This document shows positions 27,500 through 33,033 of a stretch of 64,000 bases of DNA, piece by piece. Positions within the stretch are counted from its first letter, which is position 1; every line of letters begins with the position of its first letter. Position numbers and translations under genes: made by a program. The notes below the pieces were generated by a model. The model was not told the DNA's origin, searched no databases, and saw only the letters and a program-made list of their open reading frames with translations. The stretch comes from Bacilli bacterium (lineage in GTDB: Bacteria; Bacillota_I; Bacilli_A; RF39; UBA660), in contig JAFURC010000026.1 of NCBI GenBank assembly GCA_017472015.1, forward strand, positions 1 to 64,000, given 5' to 3'.

Positions 27500-28604
27500 A
27501 TGGAATTAAATGAAATTAGAAATCAACTTTTAAATTTAAAAGAAAAAGAAGAAGAATTATGGGGGTTACTTTGACATTCCTGGTAAACAAAGTAAAATAA
27601 AGGAATTAGAAAGTATAACTCAAGAACCTAATTTTTGGTCTGATAAAAATTACGTTAATAAAGTAATGGATGAATTAAATAATTTAAAAGATATTGTTAA
27701 TAATAATATTGAATTTAAAGACAAAATAGAAAATAATTTAGAATTATTGGAAATATTAGAACTTGAAAGTGATTCAAATATTCAAGAAGAACTTGTAAAT
27801 GATTTAGAAAATTTAAAAAACAAGAGTTTAGAAATTGAGTTATTTACACTTTTAAATTCACCATACGATAAAAATAATTGTATCTTAGAAATACATGCTG
27901 GAGCCGGTGGAACTGAAGCTTGTGATTGGGCTGGTATGTTATATAGAATGTATCTAAGATATATTGAACGCCATAATTTTAAAGTTTCAACGATTTCTTA
28001 TTTAGAAGGAGAAGAAACGGGTATTAAAAGTGTTTCTATAAGAGTTGAAGGCATGTATGCTTATGGTTATTTAAAAGGTGAAAAAGGAGTTCATAGACTA
28101 GTTAGATTATCTCCATTTGATACTAATAATAAACGACATACATCATTTGCCTCAATTGATATTGTACCTGATTTTGGTGAAGTAGAAGATATTCAAATAG
28201 AAGATAAAGATTTAAAAATTGATGTTTATAGAAGTAGTGGAGCCGGAGGACAACATGTAAATACAACCGATAGTGCGGTTAGAATTACCCATTTACCAAG
28301 TAAAATAGTGGTTTCTTGTCAAAATCAAAGAAGTCAAATTCAAAATCGTGAAGAAGCCATGAAAATGTTAAAAAGTAAATTAAAACTTTTAAATATTGAA
28401 AAACAAAGTCAAGAATTAAACTCTATAAAAGGAGAAAGTTTAAATATTGAATTTGGTTCGCAAATAAGAAGTTATGTAATGCACCCTTATTCTATGGTAA
28501 AAGATCATAGAACTAACCATGAAACTAGTAATGTTTCTAAAGTTTTAGATGGTGATCTTGATGAATTTATAACAATGTATTTAAAAAATAATGTTAATAA
28601 TTAA
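27500..28604 (+). CDS. prfB: Peptide chain release factor 2, programmed +1 frameshift
   Basis: RF2 terminates at UGA and UAA. Translation starts at ATG 27500 (GGAG before it); codon 24 CTT (27569-27571) is followed by an in-frame TGA (27572-27574) and then C, with the stimulatory GGGGG just upstream. This is the classic RF2 autoregulatory site CTT-TGA-C. A +1 shift continues at GAC 27573-27575 to the stop at 28602-28604, giving 367 aa. The main frame contains SPFDTNNKRHTS, with the RF2 recognition tripeptide SPF, and GAGGQ for peptidyl-tRNA hydrolysis. The site shows that UGA is a real stop in this organism. Confidence 0.98.
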
Positions 28605-32415: not shown

Positions 32416-32444
32416 TTAACGTACGTTGGAAAGTACGTTATAAT
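32416..32444 (+). promoter_or_regulatory. Promoter and likely operator of the toxin-antitoxin module
   Basis: A weak -35 (TTAACG, 32416-32421) and consensus TATAAT (32439-32444) have 17-bp spacing. Between them an inverted repeat AACGTAC...GTACGTT holds two GTAC cores at 32421-32424 and 32433-32436, 12 bp centre to centre. This resembles the paired palindromes bound by YefM-YoeB complexes and suggests autorepression. Confidence 0.65.
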
Positions 32445-32466
32445 ATAAATAAGTGAGGTGAAAATT

Positions 32467-32721
32467 ATGGAAATAATTAACATAACTAATGCTAGACAAA
32501 ATTTATTTCAATTAATATCTGATGTCAATAAAGGATTTAATCCAATTAATATTGTTAATAGTAAAGGTGATGATGCTGTTTTAATATCCGGATCTGATTG
32601 GCGTGATATAGAAGAAACAATTTATTTAAATTCTATTCCTGGATATGTGGATTCGGTAAAAGAAGCATTAGAAGAAGATAGAAGCAAATGTAGTGTTTAT
32701 AAAAAAGGTGAAAAATGGTAG
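32467..32721 (+). CDS. Antitoxin, Phd/YefM family
   Basis: This is the labile antitoxin that neutralises the adjacent RelE-fold toxin and represses the operon. The 84-aa protein has the N-terminal DNA-binding fold of YefM (EIINITNARQNLFQLISDVN), the DAVLISGSDWRDIEETIYLN segment that follows it in YefM, and an acidic C-terminal tail that would bind the toxin. AGGTG precedes ATG 32467; a GTG at 32458 lies in that site. Its end overlaps the toxin start by 7 bp, the usual coupling. Confidence 0.9.
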   Translation: MEIINITNARQNLFQLISDVNKGFNPINIVNSKGDDAVLISGSDWRDIEETIYLNSIPGYVDSVKEALEEDRSKCSVYKKGEKW

Positions 32722-32966
32722 AATACAAAATTATTTTTTCAAAATTAGCAGACAAAGATAAAAAATTATTGAAACAGGCAGGACTAGAAGAAAAAACAAT
32801 TAATATGCTAGATATGATAAGTGAAAATCCTTACCAAACACCACCTACATACGAAAAATTAAAAGGAAATTTAGATAGTTTGTTTTCAAGAAGAATAAGT
32901 TTGCAGCATAGATTAGTTTATAAGGTATATGAAGATACCAAAGAAATTTTTATTGTAAGAATGTGA
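32715..32966 (+). CDS. Toxin, Txe/YoeB family, cut short by UGA before the catalytic His-Tyr
   Basis: YoeB toxins are ribosome-dependent mRNA endonucleases. This 83-aa protein has the family core YEKLKGNLDSLFSRRISLQH and RLVYKV, but ends FIVRM at TGA 32964-32966. In the same frame the codons after the stop read FHYDKVK and then TAA at 32988-32990. The family C-terminus carries a catalytic His-Tyr pair, preceded in some members by Arg-Met-Trp, so the TGA appears to stand in for a sense codon and removes the active-site end. It may be an inactivated toxin, a readthrough-dependent one, or a gene from a UGA-Trp organism. The antitoxin upstream is intact. Confidence 0.85.
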   Translation: MVEYKIIFSKLADKDKKLLKQAGLEEKTINMLDMISENPYQTPPTYEKLKGNLDSLFSRRISLQHRLVYKVYEDTKEIFIVRM

Positions 32967-33033
32967 TTTCATTATGATAAAGTTAAATAATAATTTCACA
33001 GTTATTTACTAATTAGATCTGAATTATAATGTA

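Follow-up and report, generated by a model that had tools for sequence, protein, structure and literature searches.

A YefM-YoeB-type module between uvrA and lgt

The window (the whole stretch of DNA analysed, 64,000 nucleotides long) carries, between uvrA and lgt, a small toxin-antitoxin gene pair whose features are compiled in Table 1. The product of the upstream gene, encoded directly ahead of the toxin, scores above the curated cut-off of the Phd/YefM antitoxin family in a Pfam search (PF02604, 49.1 bits; cut-off 29.8); its reading frame starts with an ATG at 32467, and an alternative GTG start is listed at 32458. The toxin surpasses the curated cut-offs of both models describing the Txe/YoeB family (TIGR02116, 66.7 bits, cut-off 51.8, in a family-model search; PF06769, 34.8 bits, cut-off 27, in a Pfam search).

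Table 1. Features of the toxin-antitoxin module in the window
Feature	Position	Strand	Remarks
Promoter	32416-32444	+	-35 TTAACG (32416-32421), 17-nt spacer, -10 TATAAT (32439-32444)
Probable operator, inverted repeat ACGTAC-N8-GTACGT inside the promoter	32419-32438	.	Position conserved in group-A relatives
Phd/YefM-type antitoxin	32467-32721	+	84 aa, frame intact, 7-nt overlap with toxin; PF02604, TIGR01552
Truncated Txe/YoeB toxin	32715-32966	+	83 aa; TIGR02116, PF06769; Glu47, Arg59/Arg60 and Arg66 kept; Trp84, His86 and Tyr87 absent
TGA stop in a column that is Trp in relatives	32964-32966	+	From comparison with relatives
Untranslated remnant of the catalytic tail, F-H-Y-D-K-V-K, then TAA	32967-32990	+	Relatives: (W)S/T-H-Y-D-K-V-K or (W)T-H-Y-D-K-L

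In those relatives that we refer to as group A, the promoter follows the consensus TTGACG-17-TATAAT and encloses an ACGTAC-N8-GTACGT palindrome. This repeat is probably the operator, as we infer its binding from the autoregulation of YefM-YoeB operons. The -35 box of the window copy reads TTAACG, in contrast to the TTGACG present in 17 of the 18 armed relatives. The preliminary description of this locus had regarded antitoxin, operator and overlap as intact; this holds for the antitoxin frame, the 7-nt overlap and the operator arms, but the -35 box that overlaps the operator is mutated.

The toxin frame ends ahead of its catalytic His-Tyr pair

As the preliminary description had stated, the toxin terminates with ...KEIFIVRM followed by TGA, and the subsequent in-frame codons, TTT CAT TAT GAT AAA GTT AAA TAA, spell FHYDKVK and a second stop; its assignment to the YoeB family and the loss of the catalytic His-Tyr pair, which the TGA precedes, bore out as well. 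Residues Glu46, Arg65, His83 and Tyr84 of E. coli YoeB have been reported to be needed for activity (PMC3814384, PMC4536659). Aligned with the solved YoeB proteins and their published numbering, the general base Glu47 and the active-site Arg66 of the window toxin correspond to Glu46 and Arg65 and are invariant across group A, and the residues missing from the translated product are the counterparts of His83, the general acid, and of the catalytic Tyr84. We therefore class the window toxin, judged by its sequence, as a descendant of the Txe/YoeB family and not as an active member of it.

The residues encoded behind the stop represent homologous sequence and not a chance resemblance, because the relatives continue RMWSHYDKVK or RMWTHYDKL. 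Two codons ahead of the His, the column now occupied by TGA holds Trp in 30 of the 34 distinct group-A genes, a stop in three and Tyr in one. Likewise, nearly all of 34 loci from public genomes carry Trp at this position before continuing as above, the exceptions being L006 (TGA) and L030 and L031 (TAT). The Ser/Thr column that directly follows is Phe in the window copy. Of the two ancestral residues that had been proposed for the TGA, Trp is hence the one that stands; Arg, which occurs in none of the group-A genes, is rejected.

UGA serves as a genuine stop in this genome, because RF2 is encoded (prfB at about 27540-28604), its gene carries the canonical CTTTGAC frameshift site, and 4 of the 49 long plus-strand open reading frames in the window end with TGA, a rare stop here. 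An assignment of UGA to Trp in this genome is rejected on account of prfB and its frameshift site, in line with what had originally been read from this gene. The programmed frameshift site of prfB (window 27540-28604) has the form GGGGG...CTTTGAC. The suggestion that the toxin came from a donor reading UGA as Trp is disfavoured, as the relatives write TGG.

Further copies in the assembly and arrival of the module

A Pfam search located three family-bearing places in the source genome, a draft assembly of 49 contigs (92.5% complete, 5.05% contaminated); given this contamination, its contigs may not all stem from one genome. The copy on contig C3 is the sister of the window copy (99% bootstrap). 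It ends with RM-TAA, resembles the window copy up to exactly that codon with unrelated sequence beyond, and has a frameshifted antitoxin. Homologues naturally ending at RM had been named as the observation that would speak against a truncated toxin; the C3 copy is the one such case encountered, and, since its antitoxin is also frameshifted, it is a broken relative and not a natural short form. The C3 copy (L002, contig C3 492-3674) adjoins RelB-like and YafQ-like genes, named by eye from their translations, and its surroundings apparently form a cluster of toxin-antitoxin pairs. The third copy, on contig C15, is divergent, belongs to the sister group of group A (group B) and is intact, ending RMWTHYDKVK.

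No family members were found in 16 other genomes of the same genus, and genus-level searches around G470 and G231 yielded no new close relatives. Because uvrA and lgt are contiguous in G004, separated by a short spacer that lacks the module, an insertion within this lineage most likely gave rise to the window copy. Elsewhere, nearly identical modules occur in different surroundings, as illustrated by L017 and L024, which share only 714 bp. No relatives were found in viral contigs, and the 67 plasmid records with relatives all showed less than 60% identity, so that no recent plasmid donor emerged from them. At group-A loci (including L024:1137-2850, L009:2108-3347 and L013:298-1077), the toxin-antitoxin unit is bordered by direct repeats, which have a core near GCACCAGATTGATAATTACTCGAACTT, together with a hairpin-rich stretch, AGAAATTAACC...AAATTTCCAAACGTGTACC; the same repeats border neighbouring units of about 480-660 bp in a manner resembling a cassette array. 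These repeats are absent from the genome of the window.

The catalytic tail has been lost repeatedly

Relatives were collected from 386 genomes of the family and 385 genomes of the order (about 80 places each). The tree was built from codons 4-83 only, and for each column the minimum number of changes on this tree was taken, complemented by pairwise and three-way comparisons. In group A (34 distinct genes), at least 10 changes fall on His86, a count that takes in the C3 copy with its rearranged end, four on Tyr87 and three on Trp84; none affect Glu47, Arg60 or Arg66. Among 80 positions of the toxin body, only 26 and 74 reach the number of changes seen at His86. Group B (51 genes) shows four changes at His86, none at Tyr87 or Trp84 and one at Arg66. 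Tail changes are in excess in group A over group B (three tail columns taken together, Fisher p = 6e-6), with the qualification that the changes are not fully independent. In group B, the catalytic tail is also destroyed in L136 and L156, both of which carry the same frameshift near codon 77.

Fourteen of the 33 scored copies are disarmed, and the lesions responsible are diverse. Stops arose as TGA in the window copy and in L006, as RM-TAA in the C3 copy, as a Tyr-to-stop change in L008 and as RMYTY-stop in L030 and L031; missense lesions comprise Tyr to Cys (L082) and the replacement of His, in group A by Tyr, Arg, Gln, Asn and others. Lesions of such mixed kinds are not what one mutational hot spot would produce. 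On the tree, the armed/disarmed label changes at least nine times, with five changes forced by supported branches alone; a common origin of the TGA codons in L006 and the window is not rejected (p-AU 0.216). Armed and disarmed copies also occur together in one assembly, G200, which holds those read as L016 and L021. Among the options that had been listed at the outset, that of a disarmed toxin is well supported.

Promoter and antitoxin lesions tend to accompany tail loss, and the toxin body shows no sign of relaxation

Both promoter boxes are unaltered in 17 of the 18 armed copies versus 4 of the 14 disarmed ones (Fisher p = 1.4e-4, in a test picked after the sequences had been seen), which means that the promoter is mutated in 10 of the disarmed copies and in a single armed one. 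When paired on the tree, this association was not significant: the five supported pairs gave a median p of 0.25, and with so few of them 0.05 is out of reach. Within the full-length copies for which upstream sequence is available, the antitoxin is frameshifted beside the disarmed toxins L069 and L012, and no frameshifted or missing antitoxin was found beside armed toxins. Since the armed L015 has ACG at the expected antitoxin start codon, damage to antitoxins may nevertheless extend beyond the disarmed copies. In L032, a copy with a His-to-Asn change, the antitoxin is gone except for its last codons; this toxin therefore stands without an antitoxin, which a cell would have difficulty tolerating were the toxin active. 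Among the disarmed copies, toxin lesions thus occur together with promoter or antitoxin lesions, as befits decaying systems; the order in which these lesions arose is deduced, and the tree-paired test is underpowered. L030 and L031 have identical disarmed toxins and near-identical adjoining sequences and differ in their antitoxins at about 20 positions (-262 to -32 from the toxin start), a pattern that suggests local recombination.

Relaxed constraint on the toxin body was seen neither in the private N/S changes of codons 4-83 (43/89 in disarmed lineages; 33/55 in their armed sisters) nor in the comparison of the window with the C3 copy (dN/dS about 0.19). This pattern would be expected if disarming was recent, or if the folded protein is still in use. 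Most of the divergence in the body may predate disarming, and the constraint therefore does not prove continued use.

A probable disarmed module in early decay

Starting from the stop and its column, from the way in which this tail has been lost time and again, and from the association of such losses with promoter lesions, we consider it fairly probable that the window contains a horizontally acquired YefM-YoeB type II module of gut Bacillota whose toxin has been disarmed and which has entered an early phase of decay. A gut Bacillota lineage would have taken up the module, which came to lie between uvrA and lgt. A nonsense change in the Trp codon would then have cost this ribosome-dependent mRNase its eight C-terminal residues, among them the general acid His and the catalytic Tyr. 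The remaining 83-residue product should still fold and bind its antitoxin, and it should no longer cut mRNA. With the toxin rendered harmless, promoter and antitoxin would presumably have been freed from lethal constraint. The altered -35 box indicates that decay of the promoter may already have begun in the window copy, and the sister copy on C3, with its frameshifted antitoxin and the unrelated sequence past RM-TAA, would be further along this path.

That the lesions spare Glu47 and Arg66 is not predicted by neutral decay alone. One possibility is that loss of the tail alone leaves the toxin-antitoxin complex and its autoregulation undisturbed, and that lesions would favour the tail for this reason. 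To another reading we assign a clearly smaller likelihood, namely that the module is disarmed but kept: the inactive, folded toxin might act as a co-repressor, or the antitoxin might provide an anti-addiction shield against incoming armed copies, with tail loss being selected as it abolishes the RNase activity and leaves the complex undisturbed. The clustering of lesions in the C-terminal tail, with Glu47, Arg60 and Arg66 spared, the persisting constraint on the toxin body in disarmed lineages, the intact antitoxin frame and operator arms in the window and the presence of armed and disarmed copies in assembly G200 are all in keeping with this. However, if a repressor or antidote were being maintained, one would expect neither the mutated promoters found in 10 of the 14 disarmed copies nor the damaged or absent antitoxins of L069, L012 and L032, and the constraint on the body may only reflect the time before disarming. 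A more general proposal, that tail-only loss is a recurrent, selected step toward a stable inactive antitoxin partner (co-repressor or shield) and that armed and disarmed alleles co-circulate in gut Bacillota, appears rather doubtful to us.

Readthrough of the UGA, by which small amounts of toxin would be made and its activity tuned instead of lost, is in our view very improbable. The H-Y-D-K-V-K codons do persist behind the stop in the window and in L006, with TGA in the same column and a common origin of the two that the tree comparison leaves standing, but retained tail codons are equally expected from a recent stop. The genome encodes RF2 and uses UGA for termination, the residue behind the window stop has changed to Phe, no tail follows the TAA of the C3 sister copy, and other relatives lose the His by missense; the earlier suggestion of a toxin made only by readthrough found no positive support. 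It is scarcely credible, too, that the TGA arose through faulty sequencing or assembly. The source is a contaminated draft of a metagenome-assembled genome, yet TGA stands in the same column of a second genome (L006/G470), the sister copy is broken differently at the same codon, and the promoter has changed as well.

Several stages of such decay can be seen in one module type: armed copies, copies with the tail lost and the rest intact, copies with the tail lost and promoter or antitoxin broken, and remnants. Decay of chromosomal toxin-antitoxin systems has been reported mainly from well-studied species; here it extends across many uncultured gut Bacillota. As the losses centre on the terminal His-Tyr, with the remaining catalytic residues unchanged in group A, the choice between neutral decay and selected disarming becomes a testable question.

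Relation to known systems

The window module resembles E. coli YefM-YoeB and E. faecium Axe-Txe in gene order, overlap, fold family (TIGR02116, PF06769), the Glu and Arg residues of the active site and the promoter palindrome; unlike these systems, its toxin is devoid of the terminal His-Tyr pair and its -35 box is mutated. An antitoxin encoded on the chromosome that might neutralise homologous incoming toxins recalls, putatively, the anti-addiction modules of Saavedra De Bast et al. 2008, insofar as these are described where they are cited (PMC3920263, PMC7167474); a difference lies in the loss of promoter or antitoxin from several disarmed relatives. As portrayed by the papers citing Mine et al. 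2009 (PMC2654758, PMC7167474), ccdO157 of E. coli is a decaying chromosomal toxin-antitoxin system and, like the window module, degenerates across related genomes; its toxin, by the same accounts, is a gyrase poison of another family, whereas the lesions in the window's group are concentrated, across many lineages, on a single catalytic tail. That chromosomal toxin-antitoxin systems decay through drift is an established idea (PMC2654758, PMC7167474), and the window module is therefore a new instance of it with an unusually clear, repeated target: what is new here is the repeated loss of the same tail, toxin-antitoxin decay itself being already known.
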